Assembly: GCA_947483795.1 (NCBI GenBank)
Contig: CANKLZ010000007.1
Span: 1 to 35,033 of the forward strand
Reading direction: 5' to 3'
Source: Micrococcales bacterium
GTDB lineage: Bacteria > Actinomycetota > Actinomycetes > Actinomycetales > Microbacteriaceae
DNA: 35,033 nt
Shown here: positions 3,650-11,622 of the stretch, one piece after another
Layout: every line of letters starts with the position of its first letter
Numbering within the stretch: position 1 is the stretch's first letter
Notes under the pieces: generated by a model
Databases searched by the model: none
Seen by the model: the letters and a program-made list of their open reading frames with translations, nothing else
What the model was told of the DNA's origin: nothing
Made by a program: the position numbers and the translations under genes

Positions 3650-5065
3650 ATGGAATCCCTTCTAACTATTGCCCCAATGCTAGCTACCGCTGCATACATA
3701 GTTTCATCACTGCTATTCATACTTTCCCTTGCTGGACTCAGCAAGCACGAAAGCGCTAAGGGTGGAATTGTTTACGGTGTCTCTGGTATGGCGCTTGCCC
3801 TGGTTGCAACAACATTCCTAGCAGTTACTTCTGGTTGGAATGATCCAGCTGCTCAAGTCGGTTTGATTCTCTTGGTTGTCGGACTAATCATCGGTGCAGC
3901 TATTGGTCTTTGGCGAGCACGTGTAGTTGAGATGACCGGCATGCCTGAGTTGATTGCAATCCTGCACAGCTTCGTGGGTGTAGCTGCGGTTCTTATTGGT
4001 TGGAACGGTGCACTATACGACACTGGAACACCAGAGAACCTGCTAGGTATTCATCATGCAGAAATCTTTATTGGAGTTTTCATTGGTGGAGTTACCTTTA
4101 CAGGTTCAATCGTTGCAAACCTAAAGCTCTCTGCAAAGATTTCCTCTAAGCCGCTTATGCTCCCTGGCAAGAACTTGCTGAACGTTGGAGCATTAGTTGG
4201 ATTCATAGGACTAACCGTTTGGTATGTAATAACACCAGACATCGGTTTGCTTATCGCCGTCACAGTTCTATCCCTTGCCCTTGGTTGGCACCTAGTCGCA
4301 TCTATCGGTGGTGGAGACATGCCAGTAGTTGTTTCAATGCTTAATAGCTACTCAGGTTGGGCAGCAGCGGCAGCTGGATTCTTGCTAAACAATGATCTTT
4401 TGATTGTTACCGGTGCTCTAGTTGGATCATCCGGTGCTTACCTTTCATACATTATGTGTAAGGCGATGAACCGATCCTTTATCTCTGTTATTGCTGGAGG
4501 CTTCGGTATCGCTGCCCCTAGTGCTGCAGATGAAGAAACCGGTGAACACCGTGAAACAGATGCAGCAGCAGTTGCTGAGCTGCTTAGAAACGCTACCTCG
4601 GTTGTGATCACCCCTGGTTACGGTATGGCTGTTGCTCAGGCCCAATATCCGGTTGCAGACCTTGCAGCAAGGCTTAGAGAAAAGGGTGTGAACGTTAGGT
4701 TTGGTATTCACCCTGTTGCTGGAAGACTTCCTGGACACATGAACGTACTTCTTGCCGAAGCTAAGGTTCCTTACGACATTGTTGATGAGATGGATGAGAT
4801 CAACGATGACTTTGCAACTACTTCAGTAGTTCTAGTTATCGGAGCTAATGACACTGTGAACCCAGCAGCAGCTGAAGACCCAACCAGCCCTATCGCCGGT
4901 ATGCCAGTGCTTAGAGTTTGGGAAGCAGAGAACGTCATCGTCTTCAAGCGCTCAATGGCCTCAGGTTACGCAGGTGTGCAGAACCCACTGTTCTTTAGGG
5001 AGAATGCCGCGATGCTATTCGGTGATGCTAAGCAAAAAGTCGAAGATATTCTGCGAGCACTCTAA
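3650..5065 (+). CDS. pntB: NAD(P) transhydrogenase subunit beta
   Basis: A 471-residue partner of PntA. The N-terminal ~275 residues hold about eight or nine membrane helices forming the proton channel, with [33 protein letters not shown] and [20 protein letters not shown]. The C-terminal domain III binds NADP(H) and shows [33 protein letters not shown] and [14 protein letters not shown], ending near LFGDAK. All are nearly identical to E. coli PntB. The ATG directly follows the pntA stop, giving a tightly coupled two-gene operon. A tRNA-Arg fragment on the opposite strand starts ten bases after the stop. Confidence 0.97.
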
Positions 5066-5074
5066 AGAGATAAA

Positions 5075-5101
5075 AGCGCCCTCGGCAGGAATCGAACCTG
5101 C
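5075..5101. repeat. 27-bp direct repeat, distal copy (att-like)
   Basis: An exact match to 8174-8200. It covers the tRNA-Arg T arm and acceptor 3' strand plus one flanking base. Together the two copies bracket the three island genes. Confidence 0.85.
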
Positions 5102-5118
5102 AATCAGGAGATCAGAAG
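5076..5118 (-). pseudogene. tRNA-Arg(UCU) 3'-half fragment (island att end)
   Basis: On the minus strand this is the 3' half of a tRNA, from the anticodon loop through the T arm to the acceptor strand. Twenty-seven bases (5075-5101) are identical to 8174-8200 in the intact tRNA-Arg. The next 17 bases carry four mismatches, all transitions, and identity is then lost. The T arm (GCAGG TTCGATT CCTGC) and acceptor 3' strand are intact, but the D arm and acceptor 5' strand are missing, so it cannot be a functional tRNA. It is in direct orientation to the intact gene about 3.1 kb away, as left by site-specific integration at a tRNA 3' end. Confidence 0.85.
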
Positions 5119-5193
5119 AACATAAGTAGCCTCTAACAAATGTTCTCTTGAGTTTGGGTCTTTTAGAAATAGCTGACTCAGTTTTAGCCAGCG

Positions 5194-6099
5194 CTAGTAT
5201 CTTGCAACCAAGTTTCCTTTTATTAGCCTATTCATTTCGATAAAAAGACTCTTTTGATCCTCGGTTGAACCATGAACCAATACAATCCAGCCATCACCGT
5301 AAATCATGTACTTTCCTAAATCTGGTGAATTAGACGCTGCCGATGACAAAATATCTCGAACCCCTCTGGTTTCAGATAACCATAATCCACTTGAATTCTT
5401 TATCTCTGGACTACTTCCAGCTTTGTGTTCCGTCAGCTCACAGCCAGATTTCTGAGACCCAACCATGTCACCAATCGAATCAACGCAGAAGCCATTCTCA
5501 TCAAGAATGAGAAGCTGTTCGAGAGAGTCAAGAGAACTCAATAGATTAGGCCCAGGTAAAGATTGATCTTCAACTCTCAAACAGTCAGCCCGTCTGGTTA
5601 GGCAATCTAAGATTTGATCTTCTGAGGCCAATAAGACTTCTGAAGAAGAACTCAAATCATCGACAAAATTAGGGAACCAAACTTCCTCAGGAAGAGATGG
5701 TCTGCATTCATCAATAGAACCAATTAGAACTAACCCGAATTGAGCATAGGAACCTATGTATGTCCAGTTGTCAAAGTACGAGCCGCCGTCATTATCTACA
5801 GCGTGTTGAAAACTGTCGAAAACCCGAATGTTACAGTTTGGCTTGGAGAAAGAGGTGAAGTGATTTGTGTCTGTGCCTGACAACTCAGACCAACTAGCGT
5901 CGACTTGCTCTAAGGCTGCAAGCAGCTGATCTGAGGTTTGTGTCACTCCGTTGTAGTTCGAAGATTTACCAGACGGAGTTGGAACGCTAGTTGGGCTTGA
6001 ACCATCAGGTGTACTTGTGCAAGCTGCAAGCATCACAGTTAGCAACAAGCTGGAGATAGTAAAGAACTTTTTGATTGGATTCCCCTTATAAACTGCCAC
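5194..6099 (-). CDS. Hypothetical lipoprotein (island cargo)
   Basis: A 301-residue predicted lipoprotein. The N-terminus has lysines, a hydrophobic stretch (FFTISSLLLTVML) and a lipobox LAAC with the lipidated cysteine at residue 27. A Ser/Thr/Pro-rich spacer of about 20 residues follows, then a mixed alpha/beta region with several cysteines. I recognise no family. The GTG start is supported by AAAGGG seven bases upstream; the next in-frame ATG lies inside the signal peptide. It sits 32 bases downstream of the DUF4259-like/RraB-like gene on the same strand, probably in one transcript, so an extracellular partner or sensor role is possible but unproven. Confidence 0.75.
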   Translation of the reverse strand: MAVYKGNPIKKFFTISSLLLTVMLAACTSTPDGSSPTSVPTPSGKSSNYNGVTQTSDQLLAALEQVDASWSELSGTDTNHFTSFSKPNCNIRVFDSFQHAVDNDGGSYFDNWTYIGSYAQFGLVLIGSIDECRPSLPEEVWFPNFVDDLSSSSEVLLASEDQILDCLTRRADCLRVEDQSLPGPNLLSSLDSLEQLLILDENGFCVDSIGDMVGSQKSGCELTEHKAGSSPEIKNSSGLWLSETRGVRDILSSAASNSPDLGKYMIYGDGWIVLVHGSTEDQKSLFIEMNRLIKGNLVARY

Positions 6100-6131
6100 T
6101 TTGGTGCCCTTTCAATTGACCTCCGAGCTCT

Positions 6132-6947
6132 TTAGCGTCCGAACCAGGATTTCTTGCCTTTGATGACAAGTGCACCCCACCCGTCATAAGCTGCTCCAGT
6201 TTCGAACGCTACATCGAACATGCGCAAAGTGTATCCCCAGGTGTTTTCGAAATCTGGTGCATAACTCTTGGTCGCAACAACAACCCAACACTCAGCTTGG
6301 CCATCTTCAGCCGGAAGATAGGTTGGCCCTTCAATTGAATAGTTCTCGCCCAAGGATTTGATTACTTCTACAGCCACCTTCTCAGATGGGCAGGCAAAAG
6401 TGTGATCAACATCACGCTCGATTTCAGTGTCATCCTTCATCTTGTCTCTGGTAGCAAGGAGTTGTAAGTTAGCCCAACGTTGGTTCTCCCAAGTGTTAGG
6501 TTGCATTTCCTGCTCGACCGGCGCATTGCCTTCCAGCAAATCGCCAGGCATAGTTTTGTCTGTTGGATCGACCCCAAGAGTTTTACCAATTGCATCTAGT
6601 TGTTCAAGATACTGCCCGTGCACTTCTTCACCAAACACAAGCCAGCGGGCCAAATAGTCAGATGCATACTCCCGGATTACTCTAACTACCGCGCCGGCAG
6701 CCTCAACAAGTTCTTTGGGTGGCTTCAGTGCGAGAGTGTTGGCGTTTACTGCTTCAGAGTCCTTAGAGAGAATACTTGCCACGACAAAGGCAGCAGCGAA
6801 TCCTTCTGCATGTTGCTCTTCACGTGAATCTGAGTATCGAGCGTCTTTGCAGGCACGAGCCAGAGCAGTTAGCCCCGAGCGTTTAATCTCATAAGAAAAA
6901 TCAATTGTGTCGTCACCATCAAATGGATGCATTCCCCAAACAGTCAT
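6132..6947 (-). CDS. DUF4259-like / RraB-like fusion protein
   Basis: A 271-residue soluble protein. The N-terminal part begins TVWGMHPFDGDDTIDF, resembling the start of DUF4259 proteins (WG..xFDNDxAxDF), and continues as helices to about residue 150. The C-terminal ~100 residues resemble RraB, the ribonuclease E inhibitor. Features are RDVDHTFACPS, a central strand ECWVVVATKSYAP, and the diagnostic AYDGWGALV near the end. The combination suggests a regulator or an immunity-type protein; neither is shown. There is no ribosome site before the ATG, but TAATGT at 6954-6959 could be the -10 of a leaderless transcript. The lipoprotein gene follows 32 bases downstream. Confidence 0.65.
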   Translation of the reverse strand: MTVWGMHPFDGDDTIDFSYEIKRSGLTALARACKDARYSDSREEQHAEGFAAAFVVASILSKDSEAVNANTLALKPPKELVEAAGAVVRVIREYASDYLARWLVFGEEVHGQYLEQLDAIGKTLGVDPTDKTMPGDLLEGNAPVEQEMQPNTWENQRWANLQLLATRDKMKDDTEIERDVDHTFACPSEKVAVEVIKSLGENYSIEGPTYLPAEDGQAECWVVVATKSYAPDFENTWGYTLRMFDVAFETGAAYDGWGALVIKGKKSWFGR

Positions 6948-6973
6948 GGGAACACATTACTGGAAACGCGCCA

Positions 6974-7004
6974 CTAATGCGAAGAATTCAAAGCAAGTGT
7001 CAAA
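6974..7004 (-). promoter_or_regulatory. Candidate promoter for the RraB-like gene
   Basis: On the minus strand there is a perfect -35 TTGACA at 6999-7004, but the -10 at a suitable distance (CATTAG, 6974-6979) is poor. TAATGT closer to the start (6954-6959) is a rival -10 that would give a leaderless mRNA. Which one is used cannot be decided from sequence. Confidence 0.25.
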
Positions 7005-7058
7005 GGTATGTTGTAGTGTTCAGCCTCCTGCTAATGCAAGCACTCAGAGGCGAAGCTA

Positions 7059-7736
7059 CTACTTAAGCTTTACGGACTTGGTAGTAACTTTGATAGCTTC
7101 ATACAAAGCGTCTGCAACAGTTGTGACTACTGCTGTGTACGTGCCGGCCTTGTACTTGACCTTGCTGAATTTCACGATGAAGGCACCCTTGGAATCTGTT
7201 TTTCCTGTTAAGGAAGTTACTTTTTTACCGTTGAGGTTCAACTGAACAGAAATGGTCTTGCTCTTAACTACTGTTGCACCCGACTTAATTGTTCCGGAGA
7301 TTGACACAACAGGCTTCTTCTTAAGGGAAGTATTTGTTGTCGCAATCTTTGTGGCCGCTACAGCAATCTTGCCAACGGCGATCTTGCTAGTCAGAGTGGA
7401 AGCAGTTCCGCCTGTGCATTCTGCAGATATTGCGGACGTTGAAAGAGAGTAAGTTCCTGCGACCTTTGGAGACTTAATGGATAAAGATGTGTTGCCCATG
7501 GCGTCTGCTGGACCAGAGACAGCACTGATTCCAAGACCACCATTCCAGCTCAAAGAAACCGTGCAGCCAGTCTTTACTCTCGCAACAAGCACAGTGATAG
7601 TTGAACCTGGAGTCAGACGGTCTGCCGTGACAACTCTTATGGTCGGAGCTTGACCTGCTGGGTAAGCCATTGCAGGCGCGATTGATCCAATCGCCATCGC
7701 CATTGAAACTGTGTAGGTTACAAGTATTCTTTTCAT
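7059..7736 (-). CDS. Secreted Ser/Thr/Lys-rich Ig-like protein
   Basis: A 225-residue secreted protein when read from the ATG at 7736; an upstream in-frame ATG at 7781 would put 15 charged residues before the signal peptide and is unlikely. The signal peptide begins MKRILVTYTVSMAMAIG and ends near APAMA. The mature part has two beta-rich halves: one with two cysteines (CTVSLSW and ECTGG), and a C-terminal half, after a KKKP linker, with ISGTIKSGATV, KGAFIVKFSKV and AGTYTAVVTT, typical of bacterial Ig-like folds. Calling it adhesin-like or cell-wall-associated is inference; there is no LPXTG motif or membrane anchor. TATATA at 7754-7759 is a possible -10 box. Confidence 0.7.
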   Translation of the reverse strand: MKRILVTYTVSMAMAIGSIAPAMAYPAGQAPTIRVVTADRLTPGSTITVLVARVKTGCTVSLSWNGGLGISAVSGPADAMGNTSLSIKSPKVAGTYSLSTSAISAECTGGTASTLTSKIAVGKIAVAATKIATTNTSLKKKPVVSISGTIKSGATVVKSKTISVQLNLNGKKVTSLTGKTDSKGAFIVKFSKVKYKAGTYTAVVTTVADALYEAIKVTTKSVKLK

Positions 7737-7791
7737 TGTTTCTCGCTTCTGGATATATAAAGTAAACGCCCATGACCGCATCTATGAGGTG

Positions 7792-7822
7792 TTGATAAAA
7801 GGAGATAGCTAAATTTTATCAA
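7792..7822. promoter_or_regulatory. 9-bp perfect inverted repeat in island gap
   Basis: TTGATAAAA (7792-7800) and TTTTATCAA (7814-7822) are exact reverse complements separated by 13 bases. It lies 56 bases upstream of the secreted Ig-like gene. It lacks the GC-rich stem of a typical terminator and could be an operator. The rest of the 8.2-kb gap (7823-8173) shows no gene, only AT-rich non-coding sequence up to the tRNA. Confidence 0.3.
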
Positions 7823-8173
7823 AAATGCTTCGGTTATCTCAGGTATTTCTGAAATAGAAGCAACTTTTTTTGAGCGAATTTGTTTAGAGACTCTTAGATA
7901 ATCGCCTGAACGAATGTTTTGCGATTGAACGTGTTGCTCGCCCAAATCAAAATAGACGCATGCTGCAACGGAGACTCGATGTCGTTCCTTTAATGACTTT
8001 CAGCTAATTCGCTTTCACTGCAAAATGATGAAACCTATGCGACGAGTTTAAAAAGGGATGCCCTACGTATTTAGACTTTCGTTTGCTATTCAATAGATTG
8101 CGTTTGCACCTGGTTAGCCACAACACACCAAAAAAGATAGAAGTTGTGCAGACATTGCTGGATCTAAATTTGG

Positions 8174-8200
8174 AGCGCCCTCGGCAGGAATCGAACCTGC
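8174..8200. repeat. 27-bp direct repeat, tRNA copy (att-like)
   Basis: An exact match to 5075-5101, lying inside the 3' end of the intact tRNA-Arg gene. It is the tRNA-proximal boundary of the island. Confidence 0.85.
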
Positions 8201-8248
8201 GACCAAGAGATTAGAAGGCTCTTGCTCTATCCACTGAGCTACGAAGGC
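8176..8248 (-). tRNA. tRNA-Arg (anticodon UCU)
   Basis: A complete 73-base cloverleaf on the minus strand. The acceptor GCCTTCG pairs with CGAGGGC with one G-T wobble. The D arm is GCTC/GAGC, the anticodon loop CTTCTAA gives UCU (reading AGA, Arg), and the T arm is GCAGG TTCGATT CCTGC. The CCA end is not encoded. The top pair of the anticodon stem (31-39) is a C-T mismatch, leaving a four-pair stem extended by A26-T44. Its 3' end is the apparent integration site of the island. Confidence 0.93.
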
Positions 8249-8406: not shown

Positions 8407-11400
8407 ATGTTCAGCTTGTCAAAAGTAAGTCTCGCTAACCGTTCAGTGGTAGCACTGATAACAGTTATTCTCGCTGTATTCGGCTTCGTGTCAGTTGGCT
8501 CGCTGAAGCAGGAACTATTCCCTTCCCTTGAGTTCCCTCAGGCAGCTATCGTGACGACCTACCCTGGAGCAGCTCCTGAGGTAATTGACACTCAGGTCAG
8601 CCGAGTAATTGAAGGGTCAGTAGAAACACTTGAAGGTGTGACAACTACTTCCTCGACAAGCCAGAGCAGCCTTTCAACTGTTCGAGTTACTTTTGACTTT
8701 GGCATTACCTCAGCTAAGGTGACTGAATCCCTAAACACAGCTTTGGATTCTGTGAAAGCAACACTTCCAACTGGCGCTACTGCAAGAGTGATTAGCGGTG
8801 GACTTGGAAATATTCCAGTCATGGTGCTGAGCGTTGCATCCAACTCAGGTGATAACACTGAGATTTCTAAGCTTCTCCCAGATATTGCTCCTACTCTTTT
8901 CAAGAAGGTTTCTGGTGTAAAGGATGTCCAGGTTGGCGGTATCCGTGAATACCGAGTGAACATGAAACTAAACGCTCCGCTAATGGCTGCTAACGGCATC
9001 TCAACTCAGAGCATATCTAATGCCCTAAAGACAAATGGTTTCGTTCTTCCAGCAGGAACACTTCAGGATAAAGAAGGACAGATTACTGTTCAGGTTGGCA
9101 CACCGGTTGAATCAATCGCTGCACTAAAGTCGTTGCCACTTACTGCAGGCAGCACCCCTGGCATGCCGAGCCTTGGTCGAGTATTGACTATCGGTGATAT
9201 TGCCGCTGTTACCTACGAACTGGCTCCGGTTACCTCAATCTCTAGAGTTGATGGCAAGCCATCTTTGGCTATCTCAATTACTAAGACTCAGGATGGCAAC
9301 ACAGTTTCTATCTCTAAGGGCATCAAGCCTCTCCAAGACGAACTAGCTACCAAGCTTGGAGGAGATGTGACAATCAAGGAAACCTTCAATCAGGCACCTT
9401 TTGTTGAAAAGTCAATATCTGACCTGGTTAAAGAAGGTCTTCTAGGACTTACGTTCGCGATTCTGATTATCTTGGTGTTCCTAAGATCTTGGAGATCAAC
9501 TCTGGTAACAGCAATCTCAATCCCAACATCTCTATTAGTTGCGTTTATTGGTTTATCTGGTTTTGGTTACTCACTGAACCTGTTTACTCTTAGCGCTCTA
9601 ACAATTGCCATTGGTCGAGTAGTGGATGACTCCATTGTGGTTATTGAAAACATTAACCGACACTTGGCCTATGGCGAGAAGAAGGTTGAAGCTATCTTGA
9701 ACTCTGTTCGAGAAGTAGCAGGAGCTATTACAGCCGCTACTTTGACTACAGTTGCTGTATTCTTGCCTATTGCAGTTGTTGGTGGACTCGTTGGTCAGCT
9801 GTTTAGACCATTCGCTCTAACCTTCGCTCTTGCACTTATCGCCTCACTGTTTGTATCTCTAACAATTGTTCCTGTTATCGCCTACTGGTTCCTGAAGACT
9901 CCAGTAGTTGAAGCAGGTATGACTGAAGCTCAGGCTAAGAAGTTTGCAGCTAACGCTCGTAAGGAAGAGGAAGAGCACGAGAGAAAGTCAATCCTTCAGC
10001 GTGCATACATTCCAGTTCTAACCGGAACTCAGAAGCGTCCAGTAATCACTTTGGTTGCTTCTGGTTTGGTTATTGTTTTCACCTTTGGTCTGGTGCCATT
10101 GATCAAGACCAACTTCATTGGAAGCTCAGGCTCGACTACCTTCAGCATCAACCAGGATGTGCCATTGGGCTCTTCTCTTGAAGAGAAGGCACTAGCAGCT
10201 GAAGGCGTTGAGAAACTTCTTCTAGACAGTGGCGACACTGTTGCTGTTACTACCACCATTGGTGGAACAGGTGACAGCCGTGTTGCTTTCGGCCAGTCAG
10301 CCGGTGGAATCCAGATTCAGGTTTCAACTAAAGAATCAGTCAACGGCGATGCCTTCCAAGCCAAGATGCAGAAGCTTTTCGATGCAGAGCCATCACTTGG
10401 AAAAGTTAGCTTCGAATCAGGTCAATCATTTGGTTCAAGTGGAACTATTGACGTAACTGTTACGGCTAAGACTGATGAGCAGCTACGTGCTGGTATCAAG
10501 AAGGTTCAGGATGCTCTAGAAGGCAAGATTGATAACGTCTCTCCTGATGTTGTTACTACCTTGTCTGAGAAGCAGAGAACTCTAAAGGTAACTGTTGATC
10601 GTCTAGCAGCTACTCGTGTTGGACTAAGTGAAATTGCTGTTGCAACAATTGTTTCAAGTGCTATGAGCCCACAGTCTGTTGGCTCAGTCAACATCGCTAA
10701 CAAGCAGACCGATATCTACATCAAGTCTGAAAATGTTCCAGCTACTGTTGCTCAAGTTAAAGCAATCCGTATTCCAACCTTTATGGGTGCTGTGCCATTG
10801 ACTCAACTTGCCAAGGTAGAACTTGTTTCAGTGCCCACCAAGATCACAACCCAGGATGGCGATCGTGCAGCAACAGTTTCACTAACTCCAAACAAGGATG
10901 CCAGCCTAGGTGCTATTACAATGCAGATTGCCGAGAAGGTTGATGCCCTAACTGACAACATGCCAGCAGGAACAACACTTCTTCCTATCGGTGGAGTTTC
11001 AGCTGACCAGGCAGAATCATTTAGTCAGTTGCTACTAGCTCTTCTTGCAGCTATCGCAATTGTTTACCTGATTATGGTGGCAACATTCAGAAGCTTGGCT
11101 CAGCCACTAGTTCTTCTAGTGTCAATTCCATTCGCCGCTACCGGAGCTTTCGTAGCTCTACTAGCAACCAACACAGCCCTTGGTCTTCCAGCCTTAATCG
11201 GAATGTTGCTTCTAGTTGGAATCGTTGTTACTAACGCAATTGTTCTAATTGACCTCATCAACCAGTACCGTATTCAAGGTATGCCGTTTGAAGAAGCAAT
11301 TATCAACGGTGCTCGTCAGAGACTACGTCCTATCTTGATGACTGCTTTAGCAACTATCGGAGCTCTTTCTCCTTTGGCTCTTGGCTTCACCGGTTCCGGT

Positions 11401-11622
11401 GGCTTCATCTCTCAGCCTTTGGGAGTTGTAGTTATCGGTGGTCTGTTCTCTTCAACCATTCTTACTTTGGTTATCGTTCCAGTTCTATACCGCTTAGTTG
11501 AGGGAAGAAAAGAGCGTAAAGCAAACAAGAAGATTGCTAAGACAATCGCTAAGAAGCCTGCTGCCAAAAAGCCAGTTGCGAAGGCAGCTCCAAAGCGTAA
11601 GCCAACCACTAAGACCGCTTAG
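8407..11622 (+). CDS. RND-family efflux transporter (AcrB/SwrC-like)
   Basis: A 1071-residue inner-membrane RND exporter with the classic duplicated layout: a TM helix, a large extracytoplasmic loop, helices 2-6, then the same again. The N-terminus reads VALITVILAVFGFVSVGSLKQELFP. In TM4, GRVVDDSIVVIENI carries the proton-relay pair Asp407/Asp408. In TM10, where AcrB has a lysine (KNA), this protein has VTNAIVLID, as in SwrC-type Gram-positive RND proteins. No periplasmic adaptor or outer-membrane partner is encoded nearby, as expected for a monoderm. The last ~40 residues are a Lys/Ala/Pro-rich cytoplasmic tail. The ATG has GGAG at 8399-8402. Substrates are unknown; drugs or lipids and surfactants are typical of the family. 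Confidence 0.93.
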   Translation: MFSLSKVSLANRSVVALITVILAVFGFVSVGSLKQELFPSLEFPQAAIVTTYPGAAPEVIDTQVSRVIEGSVETLEGVTTTSSTSQSSLSTVRVTFDFGITSAKVTESLNTALDSVKATLPTGATARVISGGLGNIPVMVLSVASNSGDNTEISKLLPDIAPTLFKKVSGVKDVQVGGIREYRVNMKLNAPLMAANGISTQSISNALKTNGFVLPAGTLQDKEGQITVQVGTPVESIAALKSLPLTAGSTPGMPSLGRVLTIGDIAAVTYELAPVTSISRVDGKPSLAISITKTQDGNTVSISKGIKPLQDELATKLGGDVTIKETFNQAPFVEKSISDLVKEGLLGLTFAILIILVFLRSWRSTLVTAISIPTSLLVAFIGLSGFGYSLNLFTLSALTIAIGRVVDDSIVVIENINRHLAYGEKKVEAILNSVREVAGAITAATLTTVAVFLPIAVVGGLVGQLFRPFALTFALALIASLFVSLTIVPVIAYWFLKTPVVEAGMTEAQAKKFAANARKEEEEHERKSILQRAYIPVLTGTQKRPVITLVASGLVIVFTFGLVPLIKTNFIGSSGSTTFSINQDVPLGSSLEEKALAAEGVEKLLLDSGDTVAVTTTIGGTGDSRVAFGQSAGGIQIQVSTKESVNGDAFQAKMQKLFDAEPSLGKVSFESGQSFGSSGTIDVTVTAKTDEQLRAGIKKVQDALEGKIDNVSPDVVTTLSEKQRTLKVTVDRLAATRVGLSEIAVATIVSSAMSPQSVGSVNIANKQTDIYIKSENVPATVAQVKAIRIPTFMGAVPLTQLAKVELVSVPTKITTQDGDRAATVSLTPNKDASLGAITMQIAEKVDALTDNMPAGTTLLPIGGVSADQAESFSQLLLALLAAIAIVYLIMVATFRSLAQPLVLLVSIPFAATGAFVALLATNTALGLPALIGMLLLVGIVVTNAIVLIDLINQYRIQGMPFEEAIINGARQRLRPILMTALATIGALSPLALGFTGSGGFISQPLGVVVIGGLFSSTILTLVIVPVLYRLVEGRKERKANKKIAKTIAKKPAAKKPVAKAAPKRKPTTKTA

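Follow-up and report, generated by a model that had tools for sequence, protein, structure and literature searches.

Comparison of sequences suggests (with a probability of about 0.6) that the 3,099-bp segment lying between an intact tRNA-Arg(UCU) gene and a displaced copy of its 3' half is a non-autonomous unit, or a series of accreted units, inserted at this tRNA by site-specific recombination. This segment belongs to the window, i.e., the whole stretch of 35,033 nucleotides that was analysed. Small units devoid of recombinase appear to move between species at the same tRNA, the strongest evidence being a unit of a single gene, shared by two distant congeners with 99.2% identity. The genus of the window species and of the compared congeners is probably Rhodoluna. 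The host of the window unit is a freshwater bacterium.

The intact tRNA-Arg(TCT) (8175-8248, minus strand) was found by ARAGORN and by Rfam (RF00005, 66.1 bits at 8176-8248). The island lies on the side of its 3' end (8175), i.e., the attL side. The displaced 3' half (5075-5118, minus strand; attR side) is located downstream in the same orientation, about 10 nt past the pntB stop. Positions 5076-5118 correspond to tRNA positions 32-74, with 39 of 43 bases matching (4 mismatches) and the last 26 tRNA bases identical. As announced in the preliminary description, 27 nt are identical between 5075-5101 and 8174-8200, the similarity continues to the anticodon loop, and three genes but no recombinase lie between the two copies. 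The repeat measures 44 nt at 91% identity (5075-5118 vs. 8174-8217). The anticodon loop begins at position 32 of the tRNA, and this loop is the crossover site for one class of tyrosine integrases. The conserved flanks are pntB (3650-5065, plus strand) on the fragment side and an RND-type transporter gene (8407-11622, plus strand) on the tRNA side.

The three genes are all on the minus strand. g1 (5194-6099; 301 aa), the 3' end of which points towards the fragment, contains a lipobox-like sequence and its product is by inspection a putative lipoprotein. A function for g1 was also sought from structure, but AlphaFold2 on 5 sequences gave a mean pLDDT of 50, and nothing in the PDB matched at E ≤ 0.001. 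g2 (6132-6947; 271 aa) contains DUF4259 and RraB domains; its homologues in three genomes (G004, G057 and G014) adjoin genes read as cytochrome oxidase, with no tRNA within the stretches fetched. g3 (7059-7781; 240 aa) is secreted-looking, with a weak Ig-like similarity under the cut-off, and has a paralogue (47%) at another place in the window's own genome. A spacer of 393 nt (7782-8174) separates g3 from the tRNA 3' end; by blastn against the fetched loci, nothing similar was found except the window's own sequence.

The search for mobility functions in the three genes was negative: (i) the only Pfam domains above cut-offs are DUF4259 and RraB, both in g2, and no recombinase was detected; (ii) PADLOC gave no match, and neither did NCBIfam above cut-offs; (iii) the best match in PHROGs has an E value of just 0.0036, i.e., the phage-related genes expected of a phage satellite were not found; (iv) no conjugation genes were seen in the unit. 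PF00589 has no match on the window's contig. The window genome (82% complete) encodes two PF00589 proteins of about 300 aa each, a size common across the compared genomes, which we take to be Xer-like; no candidate helper integrase was found in this genome beyond these two.

A chance match is excluded as the origin of the repeat, since a control pattern read backwards (≤3 mismatches in 26 nt) gave no match in all 67 genomes and since, in a gapped scan, the window copy scores 35 vs. a maximum of 16 for shuffled sequences (5 shuffles of each of 56 loci). Of the 53 genomes from which an intact tRNA was fetched, 12 have displaced copies of tRNA-Arg downstream on the same strand, and none showed one upstream or on the opposite strand. 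The tRNA-Arg count of record covers 56 of 61 loci, the five omitted (L079, L080, L083, L136 and L145) being without a whole tRNA. When the scan was widened to 99 tRNAs of the fetched loci, displaced 3' ends were found downstream of 12 and upstream of one, a tRNA-Ser(GCT) with a score of 19.5, and none on the opposite strand; no displaced 3' end was found at the 12 tRNA-His genes. It must be stated that this broader scan undercounts tRNA-Arg, since loci with the same tRNA and the same first 200 bases were dropped, annotated tRNAs were masked and the joined G013 locus was omitted.

The gene contents at tRNA-Arg vary among relatives, as in an additive island. In one relative (G025) the pntB-tRNA junction is empty, with 7 nt from the pntB stop to the tRNA, where the preliminary description had predicted about 10 bp; this is a single junction in one of the four relatives with pntB and tRNA-Arg on one contig, and the pntB-tRNA and tRNA-RND junctions were seen empty together in no relative. 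The closest relative (G011; PntB 97%) has a different 6.2-kb gene set at this place and none of g1-g3 there, which speaks against simple vertical inheritance of the three genes. A larger element with an integrase, looked for at this tRNA on the advice of the preliminary description, was found in G013: it is 10,374 bp long; a 401-aa Phage_integrase protein is encoded beside the tRNA, and the opposite end of the element bears a fragment. Among the units at tRNA-Arg in the genus it is the only one with an integrase. A related integrase frame, interrupted by one stop, adjoins tRNA-Arg in G059; G013 and G059 are the only genomes in which an integrase was observed beside this tRNA. A partial relative in G002 lies on a contig end. 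In two viral contigs (L192 and L197), tRNA positions 32-74 are found no farther than about 0.4 kb from an integrase, which is respectively 29% and 24% identical to that of G013. No sequence common to the integrase-less units and the G013 element was recognised by inspection beside the att sites.

The small integrase-less form, described as unusual in the preliminary description, is not exceptional: one-gene units of about 0.5-1.0 kb are repeated in several species of the genus. G100 and G035 share a 750-bp unit at 99.2% identity over 791 nt; the flanks of this unit are unrelated in the two genomes, and their RND proteins are only 54% identical. The gene of the unit is present in 3 of 67 genomes, always at tRNA-Arg. 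A kinase-like gene at tRNA-Arg is 92% identical in G016 and G034 (RND 55%), and a 165-aa gene 88% identical in G103 and G003 (RND 57%); the latter is also found away from tRNA-Arg or at unplaced positions in G011 and G045. Homologues of g1 are one-gene units at tRNA-Arg in two other species (G040 and G103). The identity of g1 is 41% between the window and G040 (RND 78%) and 59% between G040 and G103 (RND 60%), thus the g1 tree departs from the RND tree; the pair G040/G103 taken alone has a divergence equal to that of RND. A pattern-and-tblastn search of viral contigs gave no relative of g1, of a 204-aa gene or of the G013 integrase, such single-protein queries reaching close relatives only. 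Expression of the units by read-through from the tRNA promoter was also considered: a T-run at ≤45 nt from the tRNA is present in 2 of the 11 loci with a unit, in neither of the 2 remnants and in 17 of the 42 loci where no unit was detected (a class that includes G034, G042 and G021, all with related genes).

In the proposed mechanism, a tyrosine recombinase would cross over within the 7-nt anticodon loop, and the incoming circle would rebuild the tRNA 3' half and displace that of the host. Since G013 alone has a unit with a recombinase, the other units would depend on an enzyme supplied in trans by a co-resident element or phage similar to that of G013. Repeated insertion at the restored tRNA would lead to arrays with the newest unit closest to the tRNA. 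The 4 mismatches of the window fragment make a recent insertion of the window unit improbable, and this unit may by now be fixed. Fragments that start (tRNA numbering) at 32 in the window and G040 and at 31 in G003 favour the proposed mechanism; the start is 28 in G024, 29 in G100 and G035, 25 and 34-37 in G103, and 52 in G032 and G043. Other starts vary with the method: 29-35 in G054, 26-47 in G016 and 25-32 in G013, where the letter-by-letter match is unbroken from 32 and scoring extends further. Displaced copies are 3' parts, most of which begin in or near the anticodon stem-loop, except in G105 (a whole second tRNA); the lack of uniformity of the starts counts against the site-specific model.

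The same difficulty arises with the last-but-one tRNA base, which in G100 and G035 is host-specific in the intact tRNA and the fragment alike, and which is not expected from one attP and a single crossover in the anticodon loop. It fits a route by short homology, in which DNA with tRNA, unit and fragment would enter by transformation or transduction and a crossover in each of the tRNA and the fragment would insert the unit at the single tRNA of the host without integrase, an integrase having made the first copy only. In both genomes the unit boundaries lie inside the tRNA and the fragment (homology of 74 nt of tRNA plus a 46-nt fragment), and no integrase was found in G100 (71% complete) or G035 (85% complete) except the Xer-like pair. 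Nevertheless, stretches as short as these usually recombine with low efficiency and integrase-bearing elements use the same tRNA site, and we regard this route as unlikely.

Decay of a larger integrase-bearing element, from which deletions would have removed the integrase and other mobility genes, leaving three passengers between att sites as a classical cis-mobilizable remnant, would account for the mismatches of the window fragment, for the interrupted frame of G059 at the same tRNA and for the non-coding spacer by the tRNA, possibly a scar. However, units of one gene recur and one is nearly identical in two distant congeners, hence the small size is itself transmissible there, and decay seems a rather poor explanation, though it may hold for the window unit taken alone. 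A tandem duplication of the tRNA with decay of one copy and vertical inheritance of the genes in between is suggested by G105, with two whole copies 1.5 kb apart. It is very improbable for the window, where the copy is a 3' half and not a whole gene: the other displaced copies are likewise 3' parts, upstream or opposite-strand copies are absent from the 53 genomes, and the intervening genes differ among close relatives.

Site-specific insertion remains the preferred reading, probably in trans, and the G013 element, as a concrete candidate helper, makes the action in trans testable. For the window unit itself, the data fit movement in trans and loss of an integrase alike. Small, streamlined bacterial genomes still exchange genes by routes that are poorly understood; here blocks down to one gene, without recombinase, appear able to pass from one species to another at one fixed tRNA site. 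More tentatively, the tRNA-Arg(UCU) of the genus, and perhaps its tRNA-Ser(GGA), might be an integron-like platform, i.e., single-gene cassettes of about 0.5-1 kb with a tRNA 3' half and no recombinase would be added beside the tRNA by a tyrosine recombinase acting in trans, stack into arrays whose newest member adjoins the tRNA, and circulate independently between species. The boundary of the window unit consists of a tRNA 3' half. The search of a paper library listed no published description of small recombinase-less units at tRNA-Arg(UCU).

Several known systems are close. CIMEs, described as decayed ICEs or IMEs whose transfer was observed when they lay in tandem with an ICE (PMC5704250), share with the window unit att sites (putative here), the lack of integration and transfer genes, and tandem structures; on the contrary, one-gene units recur here and one seemingly moved between species alone. 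The ssrA islands of Dehalococcoides (PMC3146451) are also arrays downstream of one RNA gene, bounded by its 3'-end repeats, and 15 of them without integration module are suggested to be cis-mobilizable; they involve a serine recombinase and tmRNA, whereas here the site is the anticodon loop of tRNA-Arg and the integrase of tyrosine type. The additive flexible island fGI-2 of the freshwater, streamlined Ca. Methylopumilus (330 bp-42 kb, 1-63 CDS; PMC10872708) also has tRNA-end repeats, limited to the last 20 nt of tRNA-Lys. Here the repeat spans about 43 nt starting in the anticodon loop, one element at the site bears an integrase, and two species share a near-identical unit. Tycheposons of Prochlorococcus are likewise tRNA-associated cargo islands of streamlined aquatic bacteria, but they measure 4-200 kbp and those in PMC10872708 have the tyrosine recombinase xerD, while the window unit (3.1 kb) is below that range and has none. 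Islander islands (PMC4383910) show the same intact tRNA and displaced 3' fragment, with anticodon-centred sites as one of two classes. Among the marks of tRNA-targeted islands, the displaced fragment and an empty site were found here and the integrase required by Islander was not. As Islander rejects candidates without integrase or <2 kb (PMC4383910), the window unit and the one-gene units would fail its filters, and such units may be undercounted.

The minus strand carries the intact tRNA-Arg(UCU) gene (anticodon TCT in DNA) at 8175-8248 and, oriented alike, a displaced copy of its 3' part, the fragment, at 5075-5118. The duplicated tRNA end of the preliminary description, i.e., 27 identical bases, was found again and extends to 44 bases at 91% identity; the fragment corresponds to tRNA positions 32-74 with 4 mismatches. 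Three minus-strand ORFs separate the two copies. The 301-aa product of g1 has, by inspection, a lipobox-like sequence; g2 (6132-6947, 271 aa) scores above the Pfam cut-offs for DUF4259 and RraB, and the 240-aa g3 product shows a weak Ig-like similarity that stays below threshold. As had been described, the three genes include no recombinase; neither a recombinase nor a phage family was matched above cut-off. The island is real, and its first reading as a tRNA-targeted insertion is supported.

PntB was matched in 39 of the 99 genomes searched (the window's included), and pntB and tRNA-Arg(UCU) are seen on one contig in four relatives. The empty site expected in relatives appears in one of these four (G025) as a pntB-tRNA junction of 7 nt, the tRNA-RND junction not being seen there; no single genome has a fully empty site with both junctions. 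One gene lies between pntB and the tRNA in G044, and 6.2 kb of unrelated genes in G011. In G016, pntB is followed by two genes and a short ORF, an exact 28-nt fragment, three genes and the tRNA; collagen-like repeat proteins are encoded between this tRNA and the RND-type transporter gene (L032, 9710-11739, strand -, in a copy oriented with pntB on +). The tRNA-RND gap measures 158 nt in the window, 157 nt in G011 and 120 nt in G044. The relatives do not all carry the same three genes: g1, g2 and g3 are all absent from the tRNA-Arg site of G011, the closest relative (PntB 97%; genome 73% complete). Neither g1 nor g2 has a match anywhere in G011, and g3 has distant homologues there, away from the site. 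The six genes of the G011 pntB-tRNA site (L031 2021-7954), read by eye, resemble a ketoacyl-synthase-like, glycosyltransferase, P450-like, AMP-ligase, epimerase cluster.

A 26-nt tRNA-end match (up to 3 mismatches) is found in 57 of 67 genus genomes, other tRNAs at 2-3 mismatches being counted among the matches; a control pattern gave 0 matches in the same 67. A gapped scan (score of at least 17, shuffle maximum 16; range 12 kb or contig end) covered 56 loci from those 53 of the 67 genomes that have a fetched intact tRNA, the window's included. Downstream same-strand copies occur in 12/53 genomes; upstream and opposite-strand copies, in 0/53 each. The 12 include G105 (a whole second tRNA) and the short remnants of G032 and G043 (G043 at threshold 17). 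G035, with its fragment on another contig, is an additional case. It must be noted that the two whole tRNA copies of G105 (L144), 1.5 kb apart, differ by one T-loop base changed in the second.

Unit length was measured from the tRNA 3' end to the fragment 3' end: 3,099 bp in the window, 4,346 bp in G016, 2,803 bp in G054, 1,518 bp in G105 and 85-88 bp in G032 and G043. Several units are small: G040 (1,048 bp, a g1 homologue as sole gene), G103 (tandem units of 526 and 1,014 bp, holding a 165-aa gene and a g1 homologue in that order), G100 (750 bp, 204-aa gene), G024 (748 bp, same 204-aa family, with another, decayed fragment at 1,236) and G003 (517 bp, 165-aa family). The larger integrase-carrying element sought at this tRNA does exist in a relative: the G013 unit (10,374 bp; L090 9259 to L091 131) is the only one with an internal PF00589 match, a 401-aa protein (Phage_integrase, 1.2e-17). 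AAA, type ISP restriction-modification and T5orf172 proteins are also encoded, and this element is possibly a helper plus defence cargo. An integrase frame with one stop, 44% identical to that of G013, lies beside tRNA-Arg at a contig end in G059.

Across 791 nt, tRNA included, the units of G100 and G035 share 99.2% identity, and the sequences beyond tRNA and fragment are unrelated. The RND proteins of the two genomes are 54% identical (306 positions aligned within the first 330; the G100 RND gene is on a separate contig from its unit). Stray contigs are unlikely to explain this, because most tested genes of G100:C65, C53 and G035:C18 match other members' fetched loci at 65-92%; the exceptions are two C65 genes at only 26-33%, two without match, and one C53 gene without match. 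The 204-aa gene is found in 3/67 genomes (G100, G035, G024), always at tRNA-Arg(UCU). A kinase-like gene is 92% identical in G016 and G034 (RND 55%; the G034 contig stops before any visible fragment), and the 165-aa gene 88% in G103 and G003 (RND 57%). The latter also has matches in G011 and G045, located elsewhere or at unknown positions, which counts against a simple picture.

Homologues of g1 occur in 4/66 other genus genomes: G040 and G103, where tRNA fragments flank them, G042, where g1 adjoins pntB directly without fragment, and G049, a weak one (22-24%) whose contig begins at the tRNA. A g1 pattern scan of 84,980 species genomes gave four loci, apparently the same four; records near the window were possibly omitted. 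The window and G040 share 41% identity in g1 (RND 78%), G040 and G103 59% (RND 60%). The latter pair alone would fit common descent; when both are taken together, the g1 tree does not follow the RND tree. Homologues of g2 (60-71%) in G004, G057 and G014 adjoin genes read by us as cytochrome oxidase genes, which also complicates a simple picture; the island thus seems to hold an acquired ordinary chromosomal gene.

Most fragments start in or near the anticodon stem-loop: position 32 in the window and G040, 31 in G003, 29 in G100/G035, 28 in G024, and, depending on method, 25 and 34-37 in G103, 29-35 in G054 and 25-32 in G013; the others are G016 (26-47, again depending on method) and G032/G043 (52). 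A 7-bp anticodon loop with flanking stem resembles the overlap/core sites of tyrosine recombinases, as a section of PMC8371274 describes them, and the anticodon-centred class is one of two in the part of the Islander account concerned (PMC4383910). An exact 26-nt match is present in 22 viral contigs; in eight chosen by eye as fragment-like, starts are at 32 (three), 31 (one), 17, 26, 45 and 47. Two of those starting at 32 (L192, L197) have an integrase at most ~0.4 kb away, 29% and 24% identical to that of G013. A tyrosine recombinase supplied in trans would insert the units. Recombination across short homologies is a real rival route, and in G100 and G035 the last-but-one tRNA base is host-specific, in intact tRNA and fragment alike, which fits this route at least as well as a trans-acting recombinase.

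In another clade tRNA-Ser(GGA) adjoins pntAB, with merely 11 nt between pntB and tRNA in G021 (L041). Displaced tRNA-Ser(GGA) ends number three in G003 (one weak), one in G056 and two in G041, and their contigs have no PF00589 match. There (L038, L039, L042), the tRNA near pntB heads gene arrays with T-loop-starting 3'-end fragments between genes. In a broader scan of 99 tRNAs, from loci fetched for other reasons and hence a non-random sample, downstream copies are found at 4/8 tRNA-Ser(GGA) loci, all starting at position 64-65 (T-loop), the 12 tRNA-His loci have none, and one of the 99 tRNAs has an upstream copy. Other phage-type integrases lie within ~1 kb of tRNA-Ser(GGA) in G017, G006 and G059 (L101, L103, L106) and of tRNA-Arg(ACG) in G005, G054 and G007 (L092, L099, L100); other tRNAs of the genus are therefore integration sites too.

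The window island is of an already known kind. Like it, the Dehalococcoides islands in a passage of PMC3146451 lack an integrase and have RNA-gene-end repeats, the CIMEs in a section of PMC5704250 are integrase-less, and the Methylopumilus islands in a portion of PMC10872708 adjoin tRNA-end repeats. Two features are a step beyond these known systems: the near-identity of a one-gene unit in two distantly related congeners, and the presence of a candidate helper element at this tRNA.
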